A DNA stretch of 64,000 bases from Hypomyces perniciosus (taxonomy: Eukaryota; Ascomycota; Sordariomycetes; Hypocreales; Hypocreaceae): positions 744,001-808,000 of the forward strand of contig SPDT01000004.1 of NCBI GenBank assembly GCA_008477525.1, written 5' to 3'. A program made the position numbers and the translations under genes. This document shows, one piece after another, positions 11,070-58,310 of this stretch. Positions within the stretch are counted from its first letter, which is position 1; every line of letters starts with the position of its first letter. Under the pieces are notes generated by a model. The model worked only from the letters and a program-made list of their open reading frames with translations. It had not been told where the DNA came from and made no database searches.

Positions 11070-11229
11070 GTACTCCCCCCTTTTAAACTCTATTTGCCCT
11101 TAAATAGCTATTTTAAGACTATATATATTCTAATCCTTTTATTATATTAATTCTATTATAAGCGGCTACTATATCGCGGGTCTAGCTAGTTAGTTATTTT
11201 CTTTTTCTTAACCTAGGCAGGCAGGCCTA

Positions 11230-14200: not shown

Positions 14201-16400
14201 TTTAATATAGTGGTTTTTTCTTTAGTAAAAGCTTAATTTTATAGTTTTATAATCTTTTAAAGGGAAGTTTATTTATTAATTATAAGAGGAAGTTAATAAT
14301 TTTATTTTATAGCCAGTTAAGAAGTTTTTTTAGATATTACTTTTTATTAATTCTAGCTTTATTTCTATAAATTTATTAATATTAGACTTTAATATCCTTC
14401 AAAGGTACTTTCCGCTATAGTAGTATATAAGGAAATTATAGAAAGCTATAGGGAATAATACTTATACTGCTGCAAAGCTGCTTTATCCTTGCAATACATT
14501 TATAAAAGTATCCTTATTAAACTCTAGTAGTTAATATACTTTATATTCCTATTCCTATATATCTTTTACTAAATCTGCCTAAGTTAGTTTTATATATTAG
14601 GCAAATAAGTCTTTATAGAACTAGATAAATAATATTATAGTGGATATTTAGATATCTATTAAATTACGTTACTTATATAGCACTACTGCTGCAGTTTTAT
14701 CAGGTATTAATATACTTCGCTCAAGGAGTTATACTAGGTTATATTAATATAAATATTAACGGCTACTAGCTATAAATATTATTATTAATATTAAAGGCTT
14801 ATTTAATATTATTTATACTTTAATTTCGAGTTTTTTACAGTTATTAAATTAATAAATATAGTAGTGATTTTATTTTAGTATTAGTATAATATTAATATAT
14901 AGGTCCTTTTCTCCCTATTAAAGTATTGTTTATTTTAATATATTTTCAATATAGGCTTAAAATTTAACTTTCTTTTTAACCTTTTTCTTTATCCTTTTTA
15001 ATATATTATTTTACTTCTCGTTAATAGTATAAAGTATTAACTTTAAAGGTTTATTTAAGATATTAATATTATATAGAATAGTTATTAGGCTAGGAATTAT
15101 TAGTGTAGTGCAGGTTTAAAGGCAATAATTTATTAAATAGTATTGTAAGTTAAAGGTAACTATTAATATAGGCTAGTTAATATTAGGATTATATTGCTAT
15201 AGCTATAGCATTTTAAAGATAAAGGGGTTTTAATTTAAGAGGTTAATAATGAAAAATATATATAGCTTTCTGTATTCCCTTATTCCTATATTTAAGATTA
15301 TATAGTTAATAAACTATACTGCTGCTTTGCTATTAGCTAAAATAAAGCTTTTTAGTTTAGGTAATTGTATTATTAGGATTTAGGACTTTTAATAGAAATA
15401 CTAGTCTATAAAGCCTTATATTAAACCGCTACTATTAATAAAGGTTAATATAATTACCAGTAAATGCGCAAGGAATAATATAATATAAAGAAATAGTAAT
15501 TTGCTATCTATAGTATTTAGAATTAATAGTCTATTATTAATAATAATCTATTATATTTATAAAGGCATTAGGTTTATAGGCTATTTTAATGTTTTATTGC
15601 ACTTTTTGATGCAATATTATTAGGAAACTACTCTTTTCCCTGCCTTTTTATATCAGGGGTTATATCTTTATAAGCAAATATATCGCTAAACGTAATTAAT
15701 CTTTTAATAAAACTGGTTTTATTAATATAATATAGGAATAGGTTTCTGTAGTATAATGGGTTTCTTTAGGCTAGGAAATACTAATACTGCAGGAATTAAA
15801 GAATAGGAATTTATAATGCCGGTATACTTTTTCTTTAACTTAAAATATACGCCTTACTTTAAGGCACTATAGTGCTATTGCCTTAATATATTCCGCGTTT
15901 TAGGAAGCCGCTACTATATCCCTATAAAGTTTAAAGTCTTATAATATTAGCTTTCTGCTTTTTTATATAATTATTAACTGTATATTAGCTGCTATAGTAG
16001 TAGTATAGGTTATAGAGTTATTAGTATTTTTTATATTATAAAGTAAAGGATATAGTATTTAACTGTATAGGATTGCCTATATTGTTTTACTTTAAAGGGT
16101 TTAATTTATTTTAAAGTAAAGTTTATTAAAAAGTATAGTTACTGTTTAGCTTTTTAAACTTATAGTTGCCTTTAAATTTAGTGTAATAAGCCTACTCTTT
16201 AAGGTTATTATAAACTTTCTAACTAAAAATTCTTTAAATAAATTAGTTATCTTTATTTATAGGCTTATTACTTTTATTAGTAAAGGCAGCAGCTATTTCT
16301 TTTAATACTTTAAAGTAAAAGGCATTAACTTTTTAAATATTAGTTTTACTAGTTTAAGCTATTAGTTTATAAAATTTAATAATAAAATTCTAAAATAATT
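11230..16400 (-). pseudogene. Gag-Pol relic of chromovirus B
   Basis: A conceptual reading of the minus strand gives gag-like sequence (about 16.4-15.3 kb), reverse transcriptase with the Y-x-D-D site changed to FNN at about 13,745-13,757, RNase H, integrase (about 12.6-11.9 kb) and a C-terminal chromodomain-like segment near 11.23-11.38 kb. The assignment is supported by the inverted relative F, whose same segments read as the same domains. In-frame TAA/TAG codons are everywhere. No functional product. Confidence 0.75.
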
Positions 16401-17339
16401 TATTTACTATATAGTAAATATTAAACTTTTAGGCAATAGATTGCAAGAGGTTAAAAGTTTTATACTATAAGTCTAGGTATTTAATAAAAGTTTTACTATT
16501 TTTTTATTTTTATATTATATAGTTATCTTTTTTTATTATAATATTATTAAATACCTTTTATATTAAATTATAAGTATTATTATTTAGTTTACTGCTAATA
16601 TAAAGGATATATTTATAAAGGGTATTAAAGTATTTAGTATTAATTATAATGTTATATAGTATAATAGAATACTAGTTTATATATTTCTATTAATAGGTTT
16701 TTATATCTTTATCTTTAATATTAAATTTATCTTTAAACTTATTAATTTAATACTTTAAAATATTATTACTTTTAGCTTTAATAAATTTATTAATTATATT
16801 ACTTTAGCTTTAAACCTTATATTAAACAAGCTTTAAGTTTTTAATAATAGCAGTATTTTTAAACTCTTTTTATTTTAAAGCTATATTAAAGTTATACTTT
16901 TAATTCTAAAAGTAGTTAAAGATAATATTAAAAAACTGCTTAAATTCTAGTATTTAAAGCTATAAGGTTAAGTTATAATTATTATAATAAACTTTTAAGA
17001 TAATATAGATATAAAGCTAATTACAGAAGTAATTAATAAGCTTTACTTTTTAACTAAAGTCCTTTTCTATACCTTTTATTCTTACTTTAATATTTTTAGG
17101 TTAAATATAAGCTAGGGAATTAAGTATAGGCTAAAAAGTTAGGCTAAAGTATATTCTTTACTGTAAAGATATAGGCTTTTAGGCTTAGGGTTTTACTATA
17201 GTTAAAAGATTAGTGAATTTCCTGTAAAATATAGGGCTTTTATAGTATTATAATTAAGCTATTAGCGATTTTATTAATTCTTTTTAGGCAGGGTTAAAGG
17301 CTAAGGGTAATAGCGCAGTTATTATAGGAAGGTATAAAC

Positions 17340-34942: not shown

Positions 34943-37363
34943 TAATATCCCCTTCCCATTAGTTTTATCTTTAAGACCTATTAGTTTTTTATAAGTTTTA
35001 CTTATTTTTATTTCTCTCCCCTTTCTATACTAATATTATAATAGACTGTATTATTAAACCTTACGCTTATAAATCTAATAAGTATACTTTACTTACTTCT
35101 TTAATTCTTTCTAATAGTAATCCTGTTAATATACCTTACACTTTTTACTTCTAAAAGAAATTAGTTTATCGGATAACAAGTAATTCTTTAAAGTATAATA
35201 AATATATATATTAGGGCTATTCCTATAATAGTATTTTAATTGCTTTATCCTATATATTCCTCTTTTTCTTTTTCTGTATTTTTTTATTAACTTTTCTAGT
35301 TATGCATATACTTAAGCAATAGAAAAAGCTTAAACTGGAGGAGGATAAAGTAGGCGAGAAGCTAGAGGGTCTTTATTCTTATTTAGCGGAGTTTTAGTTA
35401 TAGATTGCAGTATCTGCGGGGCAGTTAAACTGTATTTAATGTATTAAAAAGAAAGTATATAAGTGATATACTGAATTTTTTAAATAAGGGTTATAAGGTC
35501 TAGACGAGGAGGATGGCGTACTGCCCTCTTTATCTGTCTAAGAGGCGGAGGTAATAACTAATCTTTAATCGCTAGGGGTGCCCGCTAAAGTAGATTAAAC
35601 TTTTTTAGGGTTTAGCGATAATTTTGCAGATTTAGGTCCTTTAATCTTAAAGACTAGTGAAACTGCTTGAGTTTGGTTTTGGCGTTTAACAGGTGTTTAA
35701 TAGGTTCCTAAAAGTTATATTCTTCTTTATAGTTTTTCCACTTAATTAAGTACTAGCGTTTATTATTTTCTGTGCATATAGCCTTAATTTCTTTAACATT
35801 ATATTCTTTTTAAATTAATAAGACTTTAATTAAGTTTATAATTAATTTATTTTTTAATTTATTTTATAATACTTTTTCAAGTAGCGAAATATAAAATACT
35901 AGGTAAATTCGGATATTATCTAATAGTATAAGTTTATAAGTGACTTTTAAAATAACCTTTTTAATTAAATAGGGTTTAAATTTCTTAAAGTTTAATTTAT
36001 TATTTAATTGCATTATTTTAATATTTATAGTTTTTTTCTTTAGTAAATATTAATATAAGTAAACTATATCTCCCTCTTTAAAAATTAGTCCCTTTTATCT
36101 ATATTTATTAATATATTTTTTTGTTTTTTCCTATATAAAGTAAAGGTATACCTGCATTTCTTTATATAACTGCTTTATATTTTCAGCTTTAATTTATACT
36201 TTATTAATATATACACCTTTCCTTAACACTTTATATATATTTAATATAAAGCTATAGTTAATATATAGGGCTAAGTCTAGTTAACTCTGAAATATCGCTA
36301 TTATAAAATATCTATACAATTAGTAATTTCTTTACTTAATTGTTTTAGTTAATATTAATATAACTTCTTAGATAAGCTTTAATAATCTAGTTAATGCATT
36401 TTATTTAATTATCTATATATAGGTAATATATAGTATTAAGCTTATAATTTATATTTAACTAATTTATAAGTATTTGCTAGAATTTAAATATAAAGGTTAA
36501 TTTTTAGTTAGAAATAATGTTAGCTAGAATTATATAGTTAGCTATAATAAATTGCAAGAATATATAAGCTAGTATTTCTATATTTATTACTTTTTTATAT
36601 AAAAAAAAGTAAAAGTATTTAATAAATTAGTTTATAATTACTAAAATACTATTATATTTAATTTTTAATCCTAGTTTAATAGATAATAGTAGTTTAATAA
36701 TAAAGTCTAATAAAATTAACTTTTATAGTTATTTTAATACTAGTAAAAGTTAGAGTTTACTGTATAGTTTATATTTTAAGGGTTTAATTGTTTTATATAT
36801 TATATAGCGAGAAATAATATCTTATATAATTTTCTTAAACCTTTAAAACGTAAAGTACCTTTATATTTATTTACAGGTTTTACAAATATTTTTATATCTA
36901 TATACTAGGTATTAATAAACTTCTATAATTATATTTTTCTAAAGTTTATTTAAAATCTAAATCTTTTTATTTTATTATTAAATTCCTTTATTATTAAACT
37001 TTATATTTTCTAAGAATCTATTATTATCCTAGATAATATAATGCTTTTTAATACATTAAAGTATAATATTATTATTAAATACTTTATATATAGCTTAAAT
37101 TATTATTTATTGGTAATATCTTTTAAAAGTTTATTTCAAAATTTGCCTAGTATACTTAATCTTTCCCTAGTTATAGTCAGCTTATTTGCTAAGTATATCT
37201 ACTTATTTATTCTCGGATCCTTTCCAGTAAATCAGGATATAGTTAAACTCTAAAAGGTATTCCATATAGCAGATCTGCCTTCCAGAGAGTTATTAAACTA
37301 TCGCGAAATACGCGATATTTTTATAGTTAATATATACCTTAACTTTATATATTCCTTTTAATA
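34943..37363 (-). pseudogene. Chromovirus D pol relic, 3' part: RNase H end, integrase, chromodomain
   Basis: Directly at the Copia edge the minus strand reads the second half of RNase H, with relics of the Y-x-D-x-K-N-L and G-R-Q motifs and an R/K-K-G-S-E-N end. Integrase follows but is very AT-rich. A chromodomain is readable at about 35,660-35,815, with an R-Y-L-I-K-W-K core and a W-x-E-P-I block (one Trp now a stop). Chromodomains at the end of integrase steer insertion to H3K9-methylated chromatin. After it come some 600 bp of low-coding tail. Confidence 0.75.
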
Positions 37364-37368
37364 GTTAA
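37364..37368. repeat. Target-site duplication of Copia E, left copy (GTTAA)
   Basis: Exact match to 44,498-44,502 beyond the 3' LTR. Confidence 0.9.
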
Positions 37369-37390
37369 TGTTGGGTTAAGTAGGCCGGGG

Positions 37391-37503
37391 CCCTACCGCT
37401 TATCAGCGCTAGGGAGCTCTTATCTGCTATGTAAGCAGATACGAGCTGACATACACATCGCATAAGCGATGTGTCAGACTAGGCAGGCGCTTACAGCGCC
37501 TGC
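37391..37503 (+). repeat. Four consecutive hairpins in the 5' LTR
   Basis: Stems: 37,391-37,400/37,405-37,414 (one mismatch, loop TATC); 37,421-37,428/37,434-37,441 (perfect, 8 bp); 37,453-37,461/37,466-37,474 (perfect, 9 bp, loop ATAA); 37,483-37,491/37,495-37,503 (perfect, 9 bp). The same array lies at 44,256-44,368 in the 3' LTR. There the last loop has three different bases but the stem is unchanged. Confidence 0.85.
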
Positions 37504-37533
37504 ACACAGCTTCTTCTTTGTGTTAGCTATATG

Positions 37534-37541
37534 TATATATA
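37534..37541 (+). promoter_or_regulatory. TATA box of Copia E 5' LTR
   Basis: TATATATA about 100 bp from the LTR end. The equivalent in the 3' LTR is at 44,399-44,406. It probably directs the genomic transcript; inferred from position. Confidence 0.5.
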
Positions 37542-37632
37542 GTGAGGCCACTACAGCATATTCTCTTTCATAAAATCAAGCTTCGTTTCCTATCTCTCTA
37601 TACTCCACATAACTGTGCCGCGCTCCGCCACA

Positions 37633-37650
37633 GTTATAAGCCCGGGTAGT
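37633..37650 (+). other. Primer-binding site of Copia E (tRNA-iMet anticodon-half type)
   Basis: The bases directly after the 5' LTR read GTTATAAGCCCGGGTAGT. Apart from one G-to-A change this resembles the complement of a CGGGCTCATAAC anticodon stem-loop of initiator tRNA-Met. Copia-type elements are known to use a cut half of that tRNA as primer. Confidence 0.5.
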
Positions 37651-37744
37651 AACTATTAGAGTTACTAGAAACTTCTACTTCAATATCATATCTCTCCTTA
37701 TACCCTTTACCCTCGCCTTTAAGCTGCTGAAGCTATCTTCTATA

Positions 37745-40700
37745 ATAGATAGCGCAAAGGATATCGCTTTCATAAAGCTGGAATCAATAGTCCAGTGGAT
37801 TGAGTGGATCACTATTCTGACCAACTATGCAACCACTGCTAAGGTCTGGAACAGGATCAATCCTGATCTCCCCAATCAGCCGAACGACTATTTCCCTGCT
37901 ACTAGGCCACCTACCTTAGCAGAAGCAAGGGAGTACGCGGTATAAGAGTTTGGTCCTAATGCCTCTGCGGCAGATATCTCTGCTTGCTATAATGGTATGC
38001 TCCAGGAGCACCAGTTCGACATCACCTCAGATAAAGAGAAGAGGAAGGCAAGCGATGCAATCCTGAATTGGATCTAGAAGACGGTTAACTCCGGCATCTA
38101 CACTTTAGTCTTAGCAGACCTCAAAGCCGCAGCCCCAGCCTCTGCTGCTACCGGAGCAGCCCATAATAACAACGGGGACTCCAACGCTAAGTTTACCATT
38201 CGCCAAATCGTTAGGAAGCTTAGGGACCGACTAGCTCCTCGCGAGGATACAATACGCGAGGAAGTACGCTTATCCTACCAACGCATACTGCATGAAGCAG
38301 AGCGCAGGAACGTTAAGCCAGAAGTGTAGTATACCCACTAGGCGCGTGTCTACGCGAGTGCAGTGAGGTATAAGCTTCCAGAGGTTACAGGAACAGCTTC
38401 CCGAACGGCTTTCCTTAAAGCTATCGGAGCACGCTTTACCCCAAGCTTCGCTGCCTACCACTTATACTATATGGACGGCCTGATCGAGAGCGGTAAAACG
38501 AATGAGATCTTCTCCCTCGATCAGCTTAGACAGCTTTTCCTAAATACTCTGAAGAACGCGGAGAACTATGCTCATAGCTCTTACGCAACGCTTGGCAACC
38601 GCTCCGACAACGCATCGGGCAGTAGCAATACACGCTCGAAGCCTCCTGTTAGTAAAGAGTGCCCTTGTAGACCTGAAAGGCACGCTTAGCCCCTAGACGA
38701 CTGTAGCAAGGTATGCGCTGCGCTCGCTGGAAGGCCTAATAAGAAAGGGAAATACGCTCTTACGCCCAAACAGGCTGCAGAGATTCGCGCGCGCCTGCGA
38801 GAAGACAAATGGCAGGTTACCCGCAAGAAACTCAGCAAGAGGGGTATTAACCTCACTGCCCTAGCACAGGGAGAAACAGCCTTAACCGTTATAGCTGCCT
38901 TGATCTCCCCGGACCTGATTGATGAGGAAGATGCGAGCCCTGCAGTGTACTCGATAAGCGTGTTGATATACATTAACGCATAGGATACACCTTACCGCCT
39001 CTCTCAGAGCACCCTTTTCGACACGTGTAGTGCTATTTATCTTGTAAATAGCAGGAACTACCTTATTCCCGGCTCCTTTATCCCGAGCACGGAAAAGGAC
39101 TACATTAAAGCAGGAGGAGCTAGCTATCCAATAATTGGAAGAGGTCGTTATCTGCTAAAGGATACTCTCTACGATCCACATCAAAAGATAACGCGCTCTA
39201 TCGAGCTTTTGGATATAGCTGTGGTTAAAGGATTTTATGTCAATATTGTATCTTCGTCAAAGCTTCAGAAAGCAGGGATTTGGCTAATAGGGTGCAATAA
39301 TACACTTTGCACCGGCACGGCCAATTCGAACACTATTGTAGGGAAGGTAGAGTATAGGTACAATCTTCTGTTTCTTCAATATAAGCCCCTATCGCTCTAC
39401 ATTGCCCCTATCCCTAAGTATACTATACTAAGCAGCTTGACAGCTCTTTTCGTTCTTCCTGACACAGACTACGGCATTTATGCAGCGTTAAAAAGCAGGA
39501 GAAGACCGATATATGATCCCCTAGTACCACGACATGACTCTAAACAGCTCTGGCATCTACAATCAGGACATCTAGGCCCAGAAGCGCTTAAAGCGCTTGT
39601 AAAAAATACGAGGAATATGTGCATTAAGGGAACTACGCGTATAGAATATAAGGCTTGTGCTTTTACGTACGCGAAACAGGTTATCTCTTGCAGATTGTCT
39701 GATAGACGAGTACTAAGACCGTTCTTCAGAGTGCATTAGGATCTTCAAGACTATCCTAAAGGCTACAATAAGGATAACTGGCTTCTGGTGCTTAAGGAAG
39801 AATACGCTGCATAGCTATATATGCGCCCTTTACCAAATAAAAAACAGGAAACTGTTTTTAGTGCTCTGTTTAACTTTATAAGTATAGTAAAGACGCAATA
39901 TAACGTCTCTATATACTTCCTTAGGCAAGATAATAAGAAAGCTGTAATCGCGGTTAGGAGCTTGTCACACTTCCAGATCTAGGCTAATATAGAGGGTATT
40001 ATCCTAGAGCTTGCCCCTTCCTATATACATAAGCCGAACGGCGCTTTGGAATAGGCAGGACAGGAAGTTATAAACAAGTCGATCAAAATACTGGAAGCTG
40101 CAGGTCTCCTAACCGACTTATGGCCTGAGAGCGCAAGAGCTGCAGCGCATATCATCAATATAAGTCCTACGCGCAGCCTTGATATAATATCACCCATCGA
40201 CAAATTGGAGCAATGGTTCCGCGACTTTGCGCCCCTTCCGATAAGGGAGCCTTCCGCGGACCTACAGCCAGATTAGAGCGGGCTCTATGCATACGGCTGC
40301 CGCGCCTATGTGCTGAATAGAGACTGCGAGGCTGGCCGGAAAAAGAGAGAATTTAAGACTAAGCCTAGGGAGCTAATTGGATATCTTGTTGGCTACACTG
40401 CAAACAATATATATCGCATTTGGTTACCCCGCCTAGCGAAGGTAATTATTATAAGGAATGTGCGGTTTAATAAGACTAGCTTCTTTAATAGCAATAAGGA
40501 GATCGCGGATGAGCTGTCCGTGGCCGAGTTAAATAAGCTGTTCGACGAGGTTGAAGAAGATGAGCCGGAATTCAAACTCTTCCCTATACACATTCCCGCA
40601 GCAAGGAACACCTTCATAGGTAACACGGAAGAAGAGAGCATACCTTTAGGGGTGGCAGAGACACAGAGCGTTAAAGACAGCTTAACAAACGCTCTAAGTA

Positions 40701-42952
40701 AGCCACCAGCGCACCCAGAAGGACCTCTCGGTCTTCAAACACCAAGGGCTACCCCAGAACAGTCAATCTCTACAGATAATACCAGCGCGCTAACAGGAAC
40801 CCTGGGCAACGCTTTAGCGAGCGACCCACCCCTCTCTGCGGAGAGGGATATAACGGAAGAACAGCCTCGCACGACGGGGGTGCACGACCCAACGAAAGAG
40901 GATAGTCCGCTAAGGCTAGAAGCAGACCAGCGTATAAAAGACTCGCCTACTTCTATAAAAGAAAAGCAGACCTCTAAGGAAATACCAGCTAGTAATCCCT
41001 TAAGCGGCAGAGCAGTAGCCGATACTCGTAGGAGCTCAAGACTCTAAGGGAAGCAACCCGCGAGAAAGGCCAACGAGTACCTCCCGGTGCATAGGACTAA
41101 GACGCGCACCCCAGACACTGCTCCTGAGGATAACAAGCCCAGCATATACTCAACAATCACTAGGCTCTTTAGTTCAACGCTATATCGACTGCTGCCTAAT
41201 CAACAGAAGCCGACAAGCAATAAATTAAAGAGCGCGGAAACGGTATTTGCTGTTCTTAGTGCAGCAACAGACCGTAAATCTTCCTCCCGGAAAAGCATAG
41301 CTCTTAACAAGCCAACTGTTCACTAGGAGGACTTAGCGAAACCGCTAAAAGACTGGAAGGAGCTTATGAAACACCCACTCAAAGATAGGTTCGAGCAAGC
41401 CGCGCGTAACGAGATTAACTCTCTGCGCGCAAAAGGGACCTGGCAAGAGATACCACGCTCAGAGGCGACGACAAAGCCACTACCGGTGCGTTGGGTTTTC
41501 ACTTATAAGTTCGACCAAAACGGAAACCTAGAACGCTGTAAAGCTCGTCTTGTAGTCCGCGGGGATTTACAAGAGCGCTCTACTATAGAGAGCACATACG
41601 CAGCTACATTAGCAGCGCGTTCTTTCCGTGTGCTTGTTGCTCTTGCAGCAAGATTCGACCTTAAGTTAAAGCAGTACAATGTCAAGAACGCTTTTCTCAA
41701 CGCCTCGAGGGACGAGAACTCGAAACCAGTTGTATGTGAGCTCCCCAAGGGTTTCAAGCAGCCGAATGTCTGTCTGAAGCTCGCGAAAGCCTTGTATAGC
41801 TTAAGGGACTCACCAAAGCTGTAGTTCGATAAACTATCTTCGACCTTGAGGCAACAAGGGTTGATCTCAAGCTCTGAAGAGCCCTGTCTCTTCTATAACA
41901 AAGCTCGGAAGATCTTCGTTGTGTTCCACGTAGATAATATCTTAATTGCATATCATCGTGACGACGAAGCTCTTTACACTAAGCTACTGAACGCTCTAAA
42001 AGCGAAGTACAAGCTCTATAGTGGAGGAGACGCGCAGTAGTTCTTAGGGATTAAAATCACCCGCAACCATGTAGAGCATAGGATATACCTTTCCCATAAG
42101 ACCTATCTTAAGAAAATTGCGAAACGATTCGGGCTTAATAAAGGAACGTAGCTTCCTATGATTCCGATACCCGTTACAGAGCTCCGGAAGAGTACATCGC
42201 AAGCTTTAAAAGCAACCATTAAGATATATCAAGAGAAAGTGGGATCAGTGCTCTATACAGCTATTATGATAAGGCCTGACATGGCTTACAGCGCCTCGGC
42301 TTTATCACGGTTTCTAACTAACCCCAGCAAGGAGCACCTTGAAGCAGTTAACCAGCTAATCCGCTATCTGTATATATGGCGTTTCCTAGCTCTTCAGTAT
42401 GGAGGGCAAGGAGAAATACAGGTCTTAACCGCTTCGAGCGATGCTTCCTTCGCTGATGATATAAATACTCGGAGATCATCTCAGGGGTATCTTATCACGC
42501 TTTTCTCAGGCCCTATCCTATGGAATGCAACGCGCCAAAGCACTGTCAGCACGTCTACGACAGAAGCTGAGCTGCTTGCCCTTACCTAAATAGCGAAGGA
42601 GGCTATAGGTTTGCATCGCCTTTTCTAAGAGATGAAATTCAAGCCCGGCGCTAATTGGAATATCAATTGTAACAATCAACCAACTATACGTCTTGTGATT
42701 GGAGAGAGCACGCGAATTAGCACTCGCCTGCGTCATGTTGATATACAAAATATATGGCTTCGGCAGGAATACCAGAAAGGATCGTTTACAGTTTCCTATC
42801 TTTCCACTAACCTTATGCCTGCTGACAGGCTCACCAAAGCCCTACCACGGCAGCGCTTCGAGCACTTCAAAGCACTGTTGAACTTGGCAGATATACGGTC
42901 ACTGGAATGGAATACACAAGAACACGGGAAACCGGTCAATTCTGGCCCGTAG
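37745..42952 (+). pseudogene. Copia E Gag-Pol polyprotein, one frame with about 18 stops
   Basis: A single uninterrupted frame of 1,736 codons, with no frameshift. About 18 internal stops are all TAG or TAA (for example at 37,943, 38,687, 39,737, 41,045, 41,822, 42,587), where Gln or Trp stood. The putative start is ATA for ATG. In order it has a copia-type Gag (37.75-38.7 kb), a GAG-pre-integrase segment with a QLWHLQSGHLG motif (about 39.53-39.67 kb), an integrase core (to about 40.2 kb), a Ser/Pro/Glu-rich linker, the copia RT from about 41.37 kb with a catalytic V-D-N in place of V-D-D (about 41,930-41,940), and RNase H with the S-T-T-E-A-E-L motif (about 42.55 kb). It would reverse-transcribe and integrate the element but is now inactive. 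Its stop lies 26 nt from the stop of the convergent antisense gene. Confidence 0.93.
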
Positions 42953-42978
42953 GCCGCCAGCCACAAGGGCATATCCTA

Positions 42979-43882
42979 TCACCGCAACAACCATTCTCCG
43001 AGAGCTTTCCAGCCCTCGCGCGCCTGCGCGCGAAGGGCGTCGTTGTCGTTGTCGCTGCTGCCCGAGGCAGCAGCCTCCTCGGGGTAAACCGAGTTCTCCT
43101 CCTCCAACAGGTCAAATTAAAGGCGCAACGCCTTCTTGCACCGGGTTGCCATCTAATTACGTAAGCTTGTGAGCGTACAAAGAAAGGAGAGTATGCTTAC
43201 CCGGTCATCCTCCTCACTCACGGCTCGAAAGAGCCGGCACGCAATCGGTGCGAGCACCGAACGACTGTAGAGCATACGATTAGATAGAGCAACACAGGCA
43301 AGTCAAGGAGGAGCTTACCAGGGGGCACATCGGTGATTACCACCGAAGCAAGCAGCGCACCGCCGAGAGCGGGCGACGGAAATACACTGGGAGAAGTCTC
43401 CCTTGCCGGCGATTGCCGACTTCAGACAACCCTCACAAGGAGGGGACAACGGCACGGCAGCAGGGGCAGCGGCGGGAGCAGCAGGAGGAGCAGCAGCAGC
43501 AGCGACGGGCGCAGGGGCCGGGACGGCAGCAGCAGGAGGAGGAGCCGATGAAGACGAGGATGAAGCTGCCTCAGCAGCAAGGCGTGCTTCACGAACAGCA
43601 GCCAAGCGCACGTCAAGAGCGGCAACAGCCGCAGCACGCCTGGACCGGCCGGGACCAGCCGGCGCAGGAGCAGGAGACGGCGCGGGAGCAGGCGCAGGAG
43701 CAGCAACAGGCGTGGCCGCTCGGCCAGCCGAGCGACCAACGTCGCGACGAGCCACCTTCGGGGGGCGACCACGACCACGCTTCACCGACGAGGTATTCTT
43801 CTTCTGCGATTTCGCTGTCAGCTAACAAACACGCAGCGCGAAGGGAATCAGTCGGAAGCGTGATACTTACAGCGGGGGCCAT
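42979..43882 (-). CDS. Antisense four-exon gene in Copia E: AT-hook and Cys-cluster protein
   Basis: Predicted exons on the minus strand: 43,882-43,871, 43,803-43,319, 43,264-43,201 and 43,152-42,979. They join to 735 nt, exactly 245 codons including TGA. Introns are 67, 54 and 48 nt with GTAAGT, GTAAGC and GTAAGC donors, CAG, CAG and TAG acceptors, and branch-like CTGAC, CTAAT and CTTAC. The product (244 residues) has a basic start with an AT-hook (KRGRGRPPK, residues 12-20), an Ala/Pro-rich linker, eight cysteines (C127-x2-C130-x13-C144-x8-C153-x2-C156-x6-C163-x2-C166-x8-C175) and an acidic, possibly helical tail. It probably binds DNA or chromatin; zinc binding is inferred. A TAA at 43,117-43,119 (codon 199, likely from CAA) would truncate this copy. 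It is GC-rich and overlaps no pol domain. The family is unknown to me; other fungal Cys-cluster domains of unknown function are possible relatives. Confidence 0.7.
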
Positions 43883-44130
43883 GTTGCTGTTGATGTTGTT
43901 GTTGATGTTGATGATGATGATGTTGATGACTGAAGAAGAAGAGCGAGGAATAAGGGCCGGGGGGGCAGCTAATATACCCATTCTAGCTGTTCAGGACCGA
44001 TTCACCTGCTTGGGAGCTTTATTGTTCAACTTCCTATTGTCACAGAACAACAATAGTTACGGCGCTCACATTCCTTTCACCTCTACAACAGAATATCGAT
44101 GCGTGTTCACAACAAGGAGCTTCTGACTAA
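43883..44130 (-). promoter_or_regulatory. Likely 5' leader of the antisense gene
   Basis: Upstream of the predicted ATG, the minus strand has a CA/CAT/CAAC-rich leader without another ATG close by, preceded by a CT-rich stretch. This is a normal fungal 5' leader. No clear TATA box is visible. Read on the plus strand the same bases give a long Gln-rich frame, which is an artefact. Confidence 0.35.
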
Positions 44131-44195
44131 GCAAAAGAGGCTCTAGGAGCGCGGCCAGTCAGTCACAACACCATGGATAGGCTAGAGTAGCAGTC

Positions 44196-44221
44196 AATGA
44201 GGCATTGGGAATAGCCTCATT
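44196..44221. repeat. Inverted repeat next to the polypurine tract of Copia E
   Basis: AATGAGGC and GCCTCATT separated by 10 nt, ending at the polypurine tract. It could act as an RNA hairpin at the 3' end of the genomic transcript, or as part of the antisense gene's promoter. No function can be assigned. Confidence 0.5.
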
Positions 44222-44233
44222 AACTGGGGGGTG
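44222..44233 (+). other. Polypurine tract of Copia E
   Basis: AACTGGGGGGTG immediately before the 3' LTR, the standard position of the plus-strand primer. Confidence 0.75.
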
Positions 44234-44497
44234 TGTTGGGTTGAGTAGGCCGGGGCCCTACCGCTTATCAGCGCTAGGGAGCTCTTATCTGCTATGTAAG
44301 CAGATACGAGCTGACACACACATCGCATAAGCGATGTGTCAGACTATGCAGGCGCTGTAAGCGCCTGCACACAGCTTCTTCTTTGTGTTAGCTATGTGTA
44401 TATATAGTGAGGCCACTACGGCATATTCTCTTTTATAGAATCAAGCTTCGTTTCCCATCTCTCTATGCTCCACATAGCTGTGCCGCGCTCCGCCACA
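44234..44497 (+). repeat. 3' LTR of Copia E (264 bp)
   Basis: The same length and ends (TGTTGGG to CGCCACA) as the 5' LTR, retaining more G and C at most differing sites. It keeps the four hairpins (44,256-44,368) and the TATA box (44,399-44,406). Confidence 0.95.
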
Positions 44498-44502
44498 GTT
44501 AA
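44498..44502. repeat. Target-site duplication of Copia E, right copy (GTTAA)
   Basis: Exact match to 37,364-37,368. Chromovirus D RNase H sequence resumes here. Confidence 0.9.
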
Positions 44503-47500
44503 TATTACTATTCTTTAAATGCAAAAGTAATAGCAAGGAATTCCTTATTATATATTAAATAATTTAATTCTATACTATATAATACTTTAAAGTAAAAGGC
44601 AATAAAGTATAGTTTACTGTTTTTATCCTTTTAATTAAATTAAACTCTTATAGTAAAGTTAAAAGCATTTATTTTAACTTCTATTTCCTTAAATAAATTA
44701 AATATAATAAGTATAGGTTTTTCCGAAATAAACTGCTTAAGTTTATTAAAGGCTTCCTGTATATTTAATGCCTATAGGACTTTCTAGTCCTTTTTAGTAA
44801 ATTTATAGAGAGTTTATATAATACTTTTATAATTTTTAATAAATTATTAATAATAGTTCATAAATTTTAAAAAGCTTTAGACTTCCTTAACTATTATAGG
44901 TATAGGCTAGTCTTTTACTGCTTATACTTTTAACAGATCTATACAGATTTTTCTAAAAGTAATAATATACTTTAAAAAGGTAACTTTTTATATATAGAAT
45001 TTGCATTTCTTTAGTTCTATAAATAGTTTAGCATTTTATAGTATCTATAATACTTTATAAATATATGCTTTATATTCTTTAAAGGTATCTAAAAAGATTA
45101 AAATATTATTTAAGTAAACAACTATAAAGATATTAAAGTACTTTTTTAATATATTATTAATTATCTTTTAAAATATTATAGGGGCGTTAATACGACTGAA
45201 AGGTATAACTAAGTATTTAAATAAACTATATTTAGTTTAAAAGGCAGTTATTTATTTATATCTTTCTTTAATTTAGATAAGGTTATAAGTGCCTTTAAGG
45301 TCTAGCGCTATAAACTATTTTTTTATATAGTCTATCCTGCAATTCTATAATTAATAATAGTAGAGTTTTATCTTTAATAGTAGCTTTATTAAGCTATTAG
45401 TAATCTATAATTAACTATAGTTTGCCTTTTTTCTTTAATATAAATATAATAAAGTAGCTTGCTTCTAATAAAGAGGGTTAGATATACTTTTTAGCTAGTA
45501 TATTGTTCAAATAGTTATATAGGCTTTTAAGCTCTTTTTTGTTTAGATTATAAACTTTATAGAAGGTAGTGCTTGTATTATCCTTAAGCTTAATTATACA
45601 GTCTTATTAGCTGTATTCTAGTAGTTTTATATTAAGTATTTCCTTAAACAGCTTATTATAGTTCTAGTATTCTTTAAAGATATTCTGCAGCCATTTTAGT
45701 AACGCTACTGTTTTAGGGTTTTTTATCTTAAGTATTTTATTAATATTATTAAATGCTTTCTGTAAAAAGGCAATTATTTTTTAAATTTGTTTATCTTTCC
45801 CTTTATTTTGTTTGGGTTTTATTTTTAGGTATTGTCTCTATAATTAAATTAAAGGTAACTTTTTTAGTTCCTTTTTTCAGTATATTTAAGGGTTCTATAT
45901 AGGATTTCTACCCTGCAGCTAAAGCCTTTTTAATAATTCTAATCGCTAAAAGAGCTTTACTATTATATTAATAAAGCTAGCTTTTCTTTTAGTTAATATT
46001 AAAGTTATTGCATTTTAATTAAAAATAACTGAAAATAATATTATATTTATTGATATTTGCTATATTATAAAGAATTACTTTTTTATATTTAGCGATTTTA
46101 AGTTTAAAATAATTAATCTTTTACTTAAACTATTTATTATTATATATAAAGGCTCTTCTTTTTATTTAATAAAATTAATATAGTCTGGTTTTCTTTTTAT
46201 AAAGTAATTATAAGCAATTTATAGTTATAAGTATAATAAAATTATTTATTGCTTTACTGTTTATTAATATATATATAATTAATATCCTTTAACTATTATC
46301 TTTAACTTAAAATATAGTAAATCTTTATTATTATTTTTATTATTTAATATTTTAAAAAATATAATTTATTAATTGTTACTTTATAGCCCTTTTATAAGTA
46401 ATATCAGTTATTTTTTAATTTTATTTTTTTTGCATAGATTTTGCAGTTAATTAAGGTTCCTTAAAGTAAATATTACCTTCTTTTATTATAGATAGTTCCT
46501 TTATAGGTAATAAAGTTAAATTGGTTTTAGTACAGCTCTTTTATAATTTAATTAATCTCTCTGTCTTTTAAAGTAGGTTTATACTTTATATAATTTTATA
46601 TTTATTATTTTTAAAGTTTTTTCTATAAATAAATAATATATTTATCCTTTTAATAGTATATATAGTCTAGCGATAAGTATAAGGTATTATTAGTTTATTA
46701 TAAATGTTAGTCTTGCAATTTATTTCGCTTATATATAATATATTTTAAGCTATTGCACTTTAAATATTATTATTAATTGCATTTAAACCTTTTATTATAG
46801 CAGAAATGCTACTCTATTAATTTCTCCTAGCAGTAAATATCATATCCTTTAAACTTATATCCTTTAAGTCTTTATAGCTAATAATATTCCTTTAAAGTTT
46901 TACTATTTAATTTAATAATAATAATCTTAAAGTCTTAATACTATATAGTTATAATCTATTCTTTTAAACGCGTTATAATCTTATACTTATTTTATAAAGT
47001 AAAATAGGATTTTAATCGGAAATATATTATACTTTACTTTCTCTTAAAAGTATACTATATACCTATATATAATATAAGTAACCTAAGATATAGTATAATG
47101 CTCTTTATAAATAATGTTATTTACAGTATAGTCTTTTTATATATAGAAATATATAGGTTCTGCTTATATAGCTAAAGTAGCTGGGATAGCTTTAATGGCT
47201 ATTTTATTATTAGCTCTATTTTACGTATAGAGCTGTCTATATAGATGTAAGTTTAACCTATTTTGTTATATGCCTATAGTAACTCTTTTAATTAAGTTTA
47301 GGTAATATTTATTTAGCTTACCTTTAAGGTTACTGTTTATAAATAGTATATTTTCTAATTCTAAAAGTATAGCACTATATAGTAATAGTCTATATTATAA
47401 AAGGTTATTTTTATCTTTATTATTAAAGTTATTACTGCTAGTTTATCTTTTATTGCCTGCAGTAATTTAATTAAAATGTCAGTAATTAATTATAGGGACT

Positions 47501-51802: not shown

Positions 51803-52520
51803 AATTGAATTTCAAATAAAGAGCTTATATTGCACCACTTTAGGTATTTTAATTCGCTATATTATTAAACCCTGTCTTTAAAGGCCTTATATATAGTAAT
51901 GCTATTAATAGCGAGTACTGCCCTGCCCATTATACCATACAGACAGGTCGCTTAGTACCCTTTTCTTTTACTCTCTTAAAGAATGCATAAGAAAGAAATT
52001 TTCCAACTAGCTACAACATCCTTAACTAGCAACCCATTTCAGTAAGGTACTAGTAAATTTACACACCTTTATAGCTCAATTTTAAGCGAGCCATTAATAA
52101 CAGTCAAAGAGGACTCCCAATAGTATTAATTATCAGTAATCCTAACACTACAATTACCAATATCTCCATAAATTGCGCAATAGACTAAGTTCCTTTAACC
52201 CTAGATGCCTATAAGATCACTAAGATTACCTGATTTTCCTATTAATTTTAATTTTTCTGCTAGTAATTTACTATATGCCCTTTATCTTTAGATATAAAAC
52301 GCATTTAAAAAATAAAAAAAAATAAGTAAAGGATTTTTAAGAGATACTATAAGATCCTTGTTTCAGTATTATTAAGATAATCACCTAAACTAGTCTTACT
52401 ACTTTATATATCTATTATCTCACCTATATTATTAGCTATTTTCGAGAGTATATTCTTTAAAGTAAAAGTATATAAATAGTATTCGCGTCCCGTTATAGGG
52501 CCCAATATATAATATATTAA
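51803..52520. other. AT-rich intergenic DNA with a second tRNA-like 5' part
   Basis: On the minus strand near 51,920-51,950 the sequence CTGTATGGTATAATGGGCAG resembles a tRNA D-arm and A box, with no matching 3' half. The remainder is AT-rich with no recognised feature up to the truncated edge of element F. Confidence 0.3.
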
Positions 52521-52829
52521 TAAAAGTATATATATTAGTGTTTTATTATATTATATAATATTATAATTAATATTAAATATTTTAATACCTTTTAGAAATA
52601 TATTTTTTATATTAGCAGTTAACTAAATAATAATACCTATAATTTAATATAAAAGGCATTTAACTATATTATAATAAAAAAGGATAACTATATAATATAA
52701 AAATAAAGAAATAGTAAAACTTTTATTAAATTTTTAAATTTATAATATAAAACTCTTAACCTTTCGCGATTTACCCCTTAATAGTTTAATACCTATTATA
52801 TAGTAAATAAGCTATTTTAAAACTTTATT

Positions 52830-55800
52830 ACTAAGTTCTATAAACTAATAGCCTAAGCCAGCAAAACTGATACCTAAAAGGTTAATACTTTTTACTTTAA
52901 AGTATTTAAAGACATAGCTACTGCCTTTACTAATAAAAGCAATAAGCCTATAAATAAAAATAACTAGTCTACTTAAAGAACTTTTAATTAAAAAGTTTAT
53001 AATAACTTTAAAGAGTAGGCCTATTATATTAAATTTAAAAGTAACTATAAGTTTAAGAAGCTAAATAGTAACTATACTCTTTAATAAACCTTGCCTTAAA
53101 ATAAATTAAACCCTTTAAAGTAAAAAGATATAAGCGATTTTATACAGTTAAATACTATATCCTTTACTTTATAATATAAAAAATATTAATAACTTTATAA
53201 CCTATATTATTATTATAGCAGTTAATATATAGTTAATAACTATATAGAAAAATAGAAAGCTAATACTATAAAACTTTAAACCTTATAGGGATATAATAGC
53301 AGCTTTTTTTAAAACACAGAATATATTAAAGTAATAGTATTATAGTACTTTAAGGCAGGGTATATATTTTAAGCTAGGGAAAAGGTATACTAGCACTATA
53401 AGTTCCTATTCCTTAATTCCTGTAATATTAGCACTTTTGAATTTAAAGAAATAACCTATTATATTATAAGAATTTATTTTTATACTATATTAATAAAACT
53501 AGCTTTATTAAAGGATTAATTACTTTTAGCAATACACTTGCCTATAAAGATATAACTTTTAATATAAAAAGGCAGGGAAAAAAGTAACTTCCTAATAATA
53601 TTATATTAGGAAGTATAATAGAATATTAAAATAGCCTATAAATTTAATGCCTTTATAGATATAATAGATTATTATTAATAATAAACTATTAATTTTAAAT
53701 ACTATAAACAATAAATTACTATTTACTTATACTATATTATTCCTTGCGTATTTCCCAGTAACTATATTAACCTTTATTAATAATAGCTGTTTAATATAAG
53801 GCTTTATAGATTCATATTTTCTCTAAAAGTCTTAAATTTTAATAATATAATTGCCTAAATTAAAGAGCTTTATTTTAGCTACTAGTAAAATAGCAATATA
53901 GTTTACTAATTATATAATTTTAAATATAGGAATAAAGGAATATAAAGAGCTATATATATTTTTTATTATTAATCTTTTAAATTAAAACCCTTTTATTTTT
54001 AAAATACTATAGCTATAGTAATATAATCTTAATATTAACTAGCCTATATTAACAGTTACTTTTAATTTATAATATTATTTAATAAATTATTACTTTTAAA
54101 CCTGCACTATACTAATAATTTTTAGCCTAATAATTATTTTATATAATATTAATATTTTAAGTGAACCTTTAAAGTCAATACTTTATACTATTAGCGAGAA
54201 ATAAAATAAGATATTAAAAAGGATAAAAAAGAAGGTTAAAAAGAAAGTTAAGTTTTAAGCTTATATTAAAAGTATACTAGAAGAAATAATGCCTTAATAG
54301 GGAGAAAGGGATTTATATATTAACTTTACACTAATACTAAAATAAAATTACTATTATATTTATCAACTTAATAACTATAAAGGATTAAAGACTAAAGTAT
54401 AGATAATATTAAATAAGCCTTTAATATTAGTTTTAATAATACCTATAGCCAATAGCTGTTAATATTTATATTAATATAACCTAATATAATTCCTTAAGCT
54501 AAATATATTAATACTTAATAAGCTTATAGCAGTAGCGTTATATAAGCGACCTAACCTAATAAATATTTAAATATCCGCTATAATATTATTTATCTAATTC
54601 TATAAAGACTTATCTACTTAATATATAAGACTAATTTAAGCAGACCTGGCAAAAGATATATAGACATAGGAATATAAAGTATATTAACTATTAAAGTTTA
54701 ATAAAGATACTTTTATAAATATATTATAAAAATAAAGCAGCTTTACAGTAATATAAGTATTATTCTTTACAGCTTTTTACAATTTCCTTATATACTGCTA
54801 TAGTGGAAAATACTTTTAAGGGATATTAAAGTTTAATATTAATAAATTTATAAAAGTAAAGCTAAAACTAACAGAAAGTAATATTTAAAAGAAATTTCCT
54901 AACTAGCTATAAAATAAAATTATTAGCTTCCTTTTATAATTAGCAAATAAGCTTCCCTTTAAGAGATTATAAGACTATAAAATTAAGCTTTTACTAAAGA
55001 AAGAACTACTATATTAAAAGAACTGCTTAATATTATTAAGTAAACTCTAGGTAATAAAAAAATAGCTAAATAAAAACCTAGTTAAAGGATTAATTAGGGA
55101 ATTTAAAGCAAGACATACTGCCCCCCTGCTTTTTACTATAAAACTTAAAAGAGGTATCTATATTTATTAAAATTACTAAAGCCTTAATAATATTACTATA
55201 AAGAATCGCTATTTATTGCCGCTAATCTAGGAGATATTAAATACTCTATATAATACTAGATTTTATATTAAGCTAGATATAATAGCTGCTTTTAATAAAC
55301 TTAGAATTATAAAGGGATATAAATAGAAAATAGCTTTAATAACCTGGTTTAAGCTATTTAAAACCTTTATTATACTTTTTAGTCTTTATAACGCCTTAGC
55401 CTCTTTTTAATACTATATTAACTATACTTTATATAATTTACTTAATAAAATTTATATAGCCTACTTTAATAATATTTTAGTCTCTTTAACTATATAAAGG
55501 AATACTAATAATATATATAAAAGGTTATAGATAAATTAATTAATATAAGTCTTTAAATTGATATTAAAAAATATAAATTTAAAATAATAAAAATAAAGTA
55601 CTTTAGCTTAATTATTATAAATAATAGTATTAAAATAGACTTTAAAAAAGTAGCTGCAATTATAAGTTAAAAGAGACCTTTAAACCTCTATAAACTTTAA
55701 CGCTTCCTAGGCTTTATAAATTTTTATTAACAGTTTATTAAAAATTTCTTTAATATCTATAAACTTTTAAATACCCTTTTAAGAAAAGATATACTATAGA

Positions 55801-58040
55801 ATTAGATAGAACTCTATACTGCTGTATTTAACTATCTTAAAACCTGGTTTATAACCGCCTTAATCTTTACTTTCTTTAACTATAATAAAAAGATAGTCCT
55901 AGAAATAGATGCCTTAAACTAGGCATTTAATAGTATTCTTTTTTAGTATAATAAAGATAGTATTTTGCAATTAATAGTATACTTTTTATTAAAGTATTTA
56001 TTTATTAAATGCAATTATAAGATTTATAATAAAGAATTGCTAGCGATTATTAAATTATTAAAAGAATAGCGCTTTAAGCTTTAAAGTATAAAAAATAAAT
56101 TTAAGATTATTATAGACTATAAAAACCTAGAATATTTTATAACTATTAAAGCATTAAATTAAAGATAAGTCTGCTAGTTTAAATTTTTATCTTAGTATAA
56201 TTTCTAGATTATTTATTAGCCTAGGTTAAAAGCAGTAAAGCTTAATATATTAAGTAGGAGATTTTAAGATATTCTAGTAAAGTTAGATTAAGATAATAGC
56301 TAATTAAAAAAAAAAAGAACCTTACTCCTAGAAAGCTGCTTTAACCTTTATACCTATATTAATATTATAGGAAATATAGATAATTAGAATTTATATACTA
56401 TAACGACTAGCACTTTAATCTTAGACTTAGAGATATTAATTAATAGAATAATTAATAAAGCCTATAAAATATTAAATATAGCGAGTATTATAATATAGGC
56501 GCTCTAAGACCTAGCTGTTTAATAATAGCTTAAAAGTATTTAAGGTAATTTAAAGGCAGCAATATAAGACTTTTAAATCTGCGGTAATTAAATATATTAT
56601 TAAAAATAACTTTTCCTTTTACTAATAGATAAAGTAAAGATATAAATTATATATTAAATATACTTTTCTAGGCTAAGGGGATACTTAAAATAAATAAAAA
56701 CACTAAACCTCTTTAACTGTATATACTAATAGCCGCAAATATTAACTAATATTAATACTTTTATTAAAAGTTATAACCTATACTTTTAAATAAAATTAAA
56801 TAAATCTACTCTTTTAAGATTTTTAAAACTATTACTAGTATTATTTTAAGCTTAAAGTAATATTTTAATAGACTATATTATATTACTATTTAACTATAAC
56901 TAATAAAGCTTAGTGTATAAAAATATCTTTATAGTAGTATACTGCTTAATAAAGATATACTACTTTATCGCTACCTATATACTTAATACTAAAGAATTTG
57001 CCAATACCTTTATTTTACGCGTTTATACCTTATATAAAGCCCTAGAAATAATTATATTAAACTAAAGTATTTAATTTATATCTAAATTCTAAAAGCAGCT
57101 ACTTTAATAACTTGGAATTTACTTTAAATATTCTTTAGTTTATTATTTAAAGACTAATAGCTAAACTAAACAGCTAAATGCAAAAGTAAAGCAATATTTT
57201 AAGTAGTTTATAAGTTTTTATTAAAATAATCAAGTAAACTGGTTACTATTTGCAGAGTTTATTTAAAATAATTAAATATTTAAAATAATAAGAACTTTAC
57301 TGTTTTTTATAAATTATAGTTTTTACTTACACTTAGAAGTTAAGCCTTTAAACCTTTACCCGCTAAATTTATTTATCGCTTAAAAGAAAAGTTTCTATAA
57401 AGTAAATACTATAGTTAAATATTTTTAATAAATTTTAAATTAATTAAAAGCCTTTATAGTATAATTAATTACTTAATATAAAGCTATAGCTAATATATTA
57501 AAAAAGGATTTATATTAATTTATAATTAGCGAAAAGGTATAATTAAAGATTCAATACTTTAAAATAAACTGCCTAATAAAAAAGGGAGATAATAAATAGG
57601 TAAGCCTATATAAAATCCTTAATATATACCTTTAAGTTTACTGACTTAAACTACTTAACTATATCTACATTTTCCTTATATTTTATAACTCTCTTTTTAA
57701 ACTATTAGCAGTTAATAAAGCAGGCTAATAAATATATTTACTAGAATAAAATACTATTAATAAATAAAAAAATAAGAATATATAAAGATAAATCCTTAAA
57801 AGAGATAACGAGATAAATAAAGTGGTGGAAAAGTAGGAATTTAATAAAATCCTTAACTGCTATAACGAGGATAGCCTATACTATTATATAGCCTAGAAAT
57901 ACTATACATTAAGCTGGTAACCTGTAAAGGATCTGAAAGGATAAGACACTGCCTTTTTAGAATACTATATAAAAAACCCTAATAAGCCCGGCCTGCCTGC
58001 TTAGGTTAAGAAGAGGAAGATAACCGACTAGCCGGACCCG
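52830..58040 (+). pseudogene. Gag-Pol relic of chromovirus F
   Basis: A conceptual reading gives Gag-like sequence (52.8-53.9 kb) and RT (about 55.1-55.6 kb) with relics of the F-x-K-L-D, A-F-N-x-L-R-I and F-x-L-Y-N-A blocks and a catalytic YFNN at 55,461-55,475. RNase H (about 55.85-56.2 kb), integrase (about 56.5-57.5 kb) and a chromodomain near 57,835-57,980, which keeps an L-S-W-x-P-V-K-D-L-K-G block, follow. The chromodomain tail with N-P-N-K-P-G is the best-preserved part. Stops are TAA/TAG throughout, and Asp codons have become Asn. Confidence 0.8.
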
Positions 58041-58071
58041 CGACGCAGCAGCTGTTTACAATAGAATTAAT

Positions 58072-58310
58072 ATAATAGGAGGATTAGAATATATATAGTT
58101 TTAGAATAGCTATTTGGGGGTAAATAGAGTTTAAAAAAGGGGGGGTACTATTACAGTACTAAACCTGCCCTCTAATAACTTATCAGTATTACGTGCGTCT
58201 TTATATAATGACTTGGTCCTACACCTATGAATTATATTCTTATAGCTTCTTGCCTTGTTTAAGGCACAACAAAGATATCACCTTAACCTGCTGTTCTATG
58301 TGCCGTGATA
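58072..58310 (+). repeat. Tandem unit 1: element F 3' end plus 162-bp LTR
   Basis: Consists of 77 bp of element end (AT-rich stretch plus G-run) and the LTR at 58,149-58,310, bounded by TATTACAGTA and TGCCGTGATA. It matches the B 5' LTR in length and sequence. Confidence 0.85.

Follow-up and report, generated by a model that had tools for sequence, protein, structure and literature searches.

A probable intron-bearing antisense gene for a predicted AT-hook/cysteine-cluster protein in a Copia retrotransposon family of Hypomyces perniciosus

The Copia retrotransposon described here as element E probably carries a real gene on the strand opposite gag-pol. Judging from the sequences of the element and its copies, the reading that we favour, and hold to be fairly probable, is that the Copia family as a whole carries a minus-strand accessory gene with its own promoter, at least two introns, and a product that would combine an AT-hook with a cysteine cluster. 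The gene would be driven by a Pol II-type promoter and preceded by a leader, the two adjoining the 3' LTR, and its two or more introns would be spliceosomal; the product would be basic, with an AT-hook, a linker of low complexity, and a cluster of six cysteines that probably binds zinc. Introns placed in this way would survive reverse transcription, since splicing of the genomic RNA cannot remove what is antisense to it; this follows from established retroelement biology. A protein of this composition could have a nuclear role, acting either on the chromatin of the LTRs or on target DNA rich in AT. The original prediction was of a four-exon antisense gene inside the Copia element; a minus-strand gene with introns and an AT-hook, present across the family, is retained here, but the four-exon product is not open.

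Anatomy of element E

Element E lies in a stretch of 64,000 nucleotides, the whole of which is referred to as the window. It is a complete LTR insertion, assigned to Copia, with plus-strand LTRs at 37369..37632 (5' LTR, TGTTGGG...CCACA) and 44234..44497 (3' LTR) that begin with TG, end with CA and are 95.1% identical over 268 aligned nt. The insertion is flanked by a 5-bp target site duplication, GTTAA, at 37364..37368 and 44498..44502. A single gag-pol frame (37637..42952, plus strand) extends from behind the 5' LTR to the stop at 42952, ending in PVNSGP in the as-is translation, and is broken by in-frame stops, of which there are 20 with the final one included. Within this frame, a Pfam match to SH3_retrovirus in 40310-41047 lies upstream of the block 41327-41821, which from its motifs we take to be the reverse transcriptase (RT). 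Copia elements have the integrase region ahead of RT in one gag-pol frame, an order that this arrangement may reflect. The distance from the gag-pol stop to the 3' LTR is 1.28 kb. A search of Rfam over 37300-44600 returned nothing at gathering score. Elsewhere in the window, two inverted segments of about 5-6 kb each (11075-16695 and 52515-58142), one to each side of its midpoint and 84-87% complementary piecewise, are perhaps two oppositely oriented copies of another repeat.

Structure of the antisense gene

The minus-strand gene extends at most from 43882 to 42979, between the pol stop and the start of the 3' LTR, and is arranged tail to tail with pol, with 26 nt separating the stops if exon 4 is fully used. 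A TATA-like box, TATATTA, can be read directly at 43970..43976 (minus strand), 87 nt upstream of the ATG at 43882. Next comes a leader (43883..43945, minus strand) made up of a CT-rich tract and then CAAC/ATCAAC repeats, the number of hexamers differing among copies, and the ATG has the context CAACATGGC. We presume from such motifs that the box, the CT-rich tract and the CAAC leader together represent a promoter and leader. A bacterial promoter scan of the region was set aside, the host being a fungus.

All exons and introns are on the minus strand. Exon 1 (43871..43882) reads ATG GCC CCC GCT and is followed by intron 1 (43804..43870, 67 nt, GTAAGT...CTGAC...GCAG), exon 2 (43319..43803), intron 2 (43265..43318, 54 nt, GTAAGC...CTAAT...ACAG) and exon 3 (43201..43264), which would run on to a stop at 43155-43153 if intron 3 is retained. 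Intron 3 (43153..43200, 48 nt, GTAAGC...TTAG) is doubtful, having no CTRAY branch, and exon 4 of the earlier model (42979..43152) is GC-rich and interrupted by a TAA at 43119-43117. The four exons, with coordinates that we reconstructed from the 245 codons originally predicted, do add up to 735 nt, but because of this TAA the frame is not continuous, and the three-intron product of the window copy as it stands has 198 residues. GC content is 67, 64 and 61% in exons 2, 3 and 4, and 52, 46 and 40% in the introns, with 47% in the leader and in pol.

A strict intron scan, requiring a donor, a CTRAY branch and a YAG acceptor, calls exactly introns 1 and 2 on the minus strand, intron 1 with two acceptors in the same frame, the alternative being TTAG at 43822. 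Fungal signals had been predicted for three introns; they are complete in introns 1 and 2, whereas intron 3 is missed by the strict scan. On the sense strand, the scan finds zero such introns, and the longest ORF is of 192 codons. The real minus strand has two full-signal donors; of 2000 dinucleotide shuffles, 16 have at least as many, so that the intron signals are above chance. When such introns are allowed, the longest ORF on the minus strand has 241 codons, counting from an upstream ATG, and one of 300 shuffles reaches this length; the two-intron product from the ATG at 43882 is 202 residues long. Six copies (L010, L016, L021, L031, L040 and L041) form a subgroup in which intron 2 has lost the same 1 nt and the second donor is of GTAGGC type.

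The sense strand of the region also carries an open frame of 237 aa, at 43413-44126. It is disrupted by deletions of 1-2 nt at 43953-43959 in 14 of 39 compared copies.

Copies of the element in the genome

A search of the genome (44 Mb in 23 contigs) with exon 2 yielded 157 matches. Around these and the matches of a further genome search, 115 stretches were taken; one of them had no long match and 12 fell outside the limits set on length, leaving 102 aligned copies, including the window copy. Compared with the window copy, the others show on average 22.8% transitions and 0.37% transversions outside the linker. Such an abundance of transitions with hardly any transversions points to a recent burst of amplification followed by RIP-like damage, the degree of which varies among the 102 copies and is least in the window copy and L010. 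The start codon of exon 1 is ATG in 8 copies, ATA in 93 and ATC in one. Exon 2 is without a stop in 4 of the 102, and its length is in frame with that of the window copy in 94. The exon 2 matches listed include no obvious free-standing progenitor that has escaped damage.

The association of the antisense region with the element was examined in the best 100 of 150 listed RT matches. In 83 of these the opposite strand carries the region at a distance of 1.2-3.2 kb downstream, and one has a match to it nearby on the same strand. Four of the 17 unpaired RT matches were inspected: L131 and L132 carry the region in strongly damaged form, and L129 and L130 are other Copia lineages, where only pol aligns and the antisense region is unmatched. 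The region thus accompanies no fewer than 85 of these 100 RT matches, and so most copies. Within this genome the region and its strand are family-wide, and the exon 4 TAA is nearly fixed among the aligned copies. In L129 (C20:21800-26800) and L130 (C9:178500-183300), Copia-like pol is open over more than 550 codons, with long minus-strand frames downstream, which look helicase-like in L129 and pogo/Tc1-type transposase-like in L130.

The 3' flanks of the insertions have a median GC content of 18%, with values below 30% in 41 of 49 measurable loci. This count of insertion flanks fits insertion into AT-rich repeats and does not in itself demonstrate targeting.

Exon 4 and the acidic tail

The codon at 43119-43117 is TAA in 100 of the 102 aligned copies and in eight of the nine least damaged. 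The copies without a stop at this position are L059, the fifth least damaged of the 102, and L064, which ranks 88th. Because of the in-frame TAA, the acidic tail of the original prediction is cut off, and is not reached by the four-exon model in the window copy. In six of the nine least-damaged copies (the window copy apart), 13-43% of comparable CpA sites are mutated, an estimate biased low by the choice of sites, at which CA is intact in the window copy or in L010. From this modest damage it is likely, if uncertain, that a large part of the amplifying lineage had the stop already. Past the stop, the frame has the best codon score of the six, with a GC3 of 0.80, scored against codon usage in three long ORFs at host loci, putative genes that total 1591 codons. 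The good score suggests that the tail could have been coding at one time, or that another acceptor may lead to it.

Substitutions and length variants among copies

The copies stem from a burst so recent that they are nearly identical beneath the RIP-like damage, which deprives dN/dS of any power. Shared transversion sites, defined as those with the minor state in at least three copies, number 74, of which 61 are inside the linker; outside it hardly any occur, whether in exons, introns or flanks. By codon position, the shared transversions of exon 2 are distributed 27, 10 and 25. This was considered as a sign of selection and rejected, since shifted Ala/Pro repeats can yield the same pattern. 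Single-copy transversions in exon 2 are even across the three positions (29, 26 and 25).

Linker length deviates from that of the window copy in 58 of the 102 copies. The difference is a multiple of three in all but four of these 58, and lengths range from -159 to +129 relative to the window copy. Length variants in multiples of three make up 0 of 10 in intron 2 and 0 of 9 in intron 3. In the exons outside the linker, the corresponding counts are 0 of 2 at the start of exon 2, 0 of 3 at its end, 0 of 3 in exon 3 and 7 of 10 in exon 4. The linker repeats of the window copy are in register for 573 of 668 pairs of 4-mers, 312 of 342 pairs of 5-mers and 169 of 178 pairs of 6-mers (86-95%). Selection was rejected as an explanation of the in-frame linker indels, as slippage among the linker repeats predicts them, the non-coding repeat of the leader behaving alike, and the indel pattern is neutral evidence. 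Codon scores in exon 2 do not favour the predicted frame over other frames.

The predicted protein

The ATG-Ala-Pro-Ala start, the AT-hook, the Ala/Pro linker and the cysteines of the original prediction are all present. The AT-hook, KRGRGRPPK (43756..43782, minus strand, as read in the window copy), has an R-G-R-P core with basic flanks, the signature of an AT-hook; the Pfam family PHF20_AT-hook scores 12.4 bits, under its cut-off of 25. The Ala/Pro repeat linker (43440..43720, minus strand) is hypervariable in length. After it in the protein comes a DUF3716-like cluster of six cysteines, C-x2-C-x13-C-x8-C-x2-C-x6-C (43327..43437, minus strand), which is probably zinc-binding. The cysteines of the product as first modelled, given as eight, come to nine.

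The cluster resembles DUF3716 (PF12511) in the order of its six cysteines and in the motif G-x-G-x-[FW]-x-x-C-[IV], as in the host protein L049. The Pfam profile search gives 12.4 bits (E 0.16) for the window copy and 17.0 bits (E 0.0059) for copy L010, neither of which reaches the curated Pfam cut-off of 22 bits, and the 50-aa cluster piece of the window copy alone has no Pfam DUF3716 match. Among ten shuffles of the cluster with cysteines fixed, none matched DUF3716 and three matched other families, at E 0.03-0.08. A profile of our own, built from 117 close DUF3716 orthologues and three loci, scores 3.7 bits on the cluster, a value equalled by 989 of 20000 cysteine-fixed shuffles. The link of the cluster to DUF3716 is tentative, and is taken as a lead. 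The genome holds five DUF3716 loci above cut-off. The L049 protein is nearest to Trichoderma proteins (75% identity to the top match), and its gene has a GTAAGT donor just after the last cluster cysteine, near the position of intron 2 of the element and in another phase.

In a protein collection that includes fungal proteins, the 7996 candidates sharing most words with the whole product were scored and no homologue was found at E<=1, the words probably being swamped by the Ala/Pro linker. A search limited to residues 118-167 gave 11 candidates, none at E<=10; both searches need shared 5-residue words, so that remote relatives may escape. There was likewise no homologue of the antisense product among viral contigs, nothing close to cut-off in NCBIfam, and no match to the cysteine cluster in a PDB sequence search. 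The structure model of a host DUF3716 relative, P0002 (mean pLDDT 67.6), had no PDB match at E 0.001 or better, the top one being at E 5.5.

Comparison with known antisense genes

In the passages of PMC7264820 that treat them, antisense accessory genes of LTR elements are mostly reported from plants, and their roles are described as still unknown. Among the plant genes classed as aORF-3R are gene23 of maize Grande, and those of rice RIRE2 and Silene Retand, with gene23 having its own promoter and a nuclear product, and TRP28 of Retand being predicted to bind DNA (PMC7264820, PMC11963269). The gene of element E has the aORF-3R position, between pol and the 3' LTR on the opposite strand, and resembles these plant genes, as those papers portray them, in occurring in most copies. 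It differs from them in protein family and in host kingdom, and splicing of the antisense ORFs is not mentioned in the relevant passages of the two papers.

A closer parallel in host type is the antisense gene brtn of Boty-like elements in Botrytis cinerea (Zhao et al. 2011, Virology 417:248, cited in PMC7264820, PMC8365987 and PMC4227169), likewise a single extra gene antisense to gag-pol in an LTR retrotransposon of a filamentous fungus, and grouped in PMC7264820 with genes between pol and the 3' LTR. The likeness is drawn from these published descriptions, and Boty is of Gypsy type (BcGypsy1 in PMC8365987, with a CHROMO domain in PMC4227169), whereas element E is Copia. The original remark that no such spliced gene was known from a fungal Copia needs narrowing, as on these accounts an antisense gene in a fungal LTR element was already known. 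A literature search, its coverage taking in few subscription papers, turned up no case in a fungal Copia of an antisense gene that is spliced.

HBZ of HTLV-1 is a spliced antisense gene that encodes a bZIP protein. Element E resembles it in having a candidate spliced antisense gene for a protein of DNA-binding type at the 3' end of a retroelement. The two differ in that the product predicted here has an AT-hook and a cysteine cluster and not a bZIP, and in that the promoter-like signals of element E are outside the LTR, while the antisense promoter of HTLV sits in the 3' LTR (PMC7264820).

Alternative explanations

We favour a gene because two full sets of intron signals occur on the minus strand and none on the sense strand, GC content steps at the proposed exon/intron boundaries, and the ATG, in a good context, is preceded in order by TATATTA, the CT-rich tract and the CAAC leader. 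The reading also draws on the region being at its expected opposite-strand place in those 83 RT matches, on the AT-hook sequence, and on the post-stop frame being the best of six by codon score. We count against it that selection could not be demonstrated and no homologue turned up in the protein collection or viral contigs, that most indels in the non-linker parts of the exons shift the frame and exon 2 codon scores are unfavourable, and that the exon 4 stop is near-fixed and the second donor poorer in one subgroup. Some of these points would also be expected if the region were a GC-rich repeat tract with an opposite strand open, and splice-like motifs present, by chance, any antisense RNA acting as RNA. 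The 237-aa sense frame is also open, exon 2 codon scores are no better than in other frames, linker repeats explain the in-frame indels, and the sub-threshold DUF3716 match is near chance. We nevertheless think it very unlikely that there is no gene, given that the two introns with complete signals connect exons in a single frame, given the GC steps, the ordered promoter-like features and the AT-hook, and given that the competing sense frame is itself broken in over a third of the compared copies.

It is rather unlikely that the region is a passive passenger, a host gene fragment captured once and amplified with the element without ever being useful to it. Such an origin would account for an exon GC content far from that of pol (67% versus 47% for exon 2), for a stop shared by nearly all copies, and for the even single-copy transversions, by which inserted copies evolve neutrally; the host moreover has its five loci of the distantly similar DUF3716 family. 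It sits less well with the presence of the region in at least 85 RT matches, with the joint retention of promoter-like leader, ATG and introns, and with the fact that no intact progenitor is evident among the listed matches. A further possibility, a variant of the favoured reading whose probability overlaps with it, is that the acidic tail belongs to the working product, either because intron 3 ends past the TAA or because the stop is shared later damage. The codon score and GC3 beyond the stop point this way, as do the two copies lacking it and a branch-like TTGAC at 43115, shortly after which a GAG-ending acceptor would preserve the frame. GAG splice acceptors are rare, and the stop is found in eight of the nine least-damaged copies even though CpA mutation there is modest by our low-biased estimate, so that we consider this variant unlikely.

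Implications

A bolder and decidedly speculative form of the favoured reading is that a spliced, self-promoted gene derived from a host DUF3716-like gene serves as an HBZ-like regulator in trans, or as a guide to AT-rich DNA made by RIP. If that is true, the antisense placement is what allows a gene with introns to be inherited through reverse transcription. Were a fungal Copia to carry an antisense gene that has introns, promoter-like signals of its own and recognisable DNA-binding features, there would be a definite protein on which to run tests. It would also illustrate a way for retroelements to keep introns in a gene, by placing it on the strand where they are never removed from the genomic RNA.
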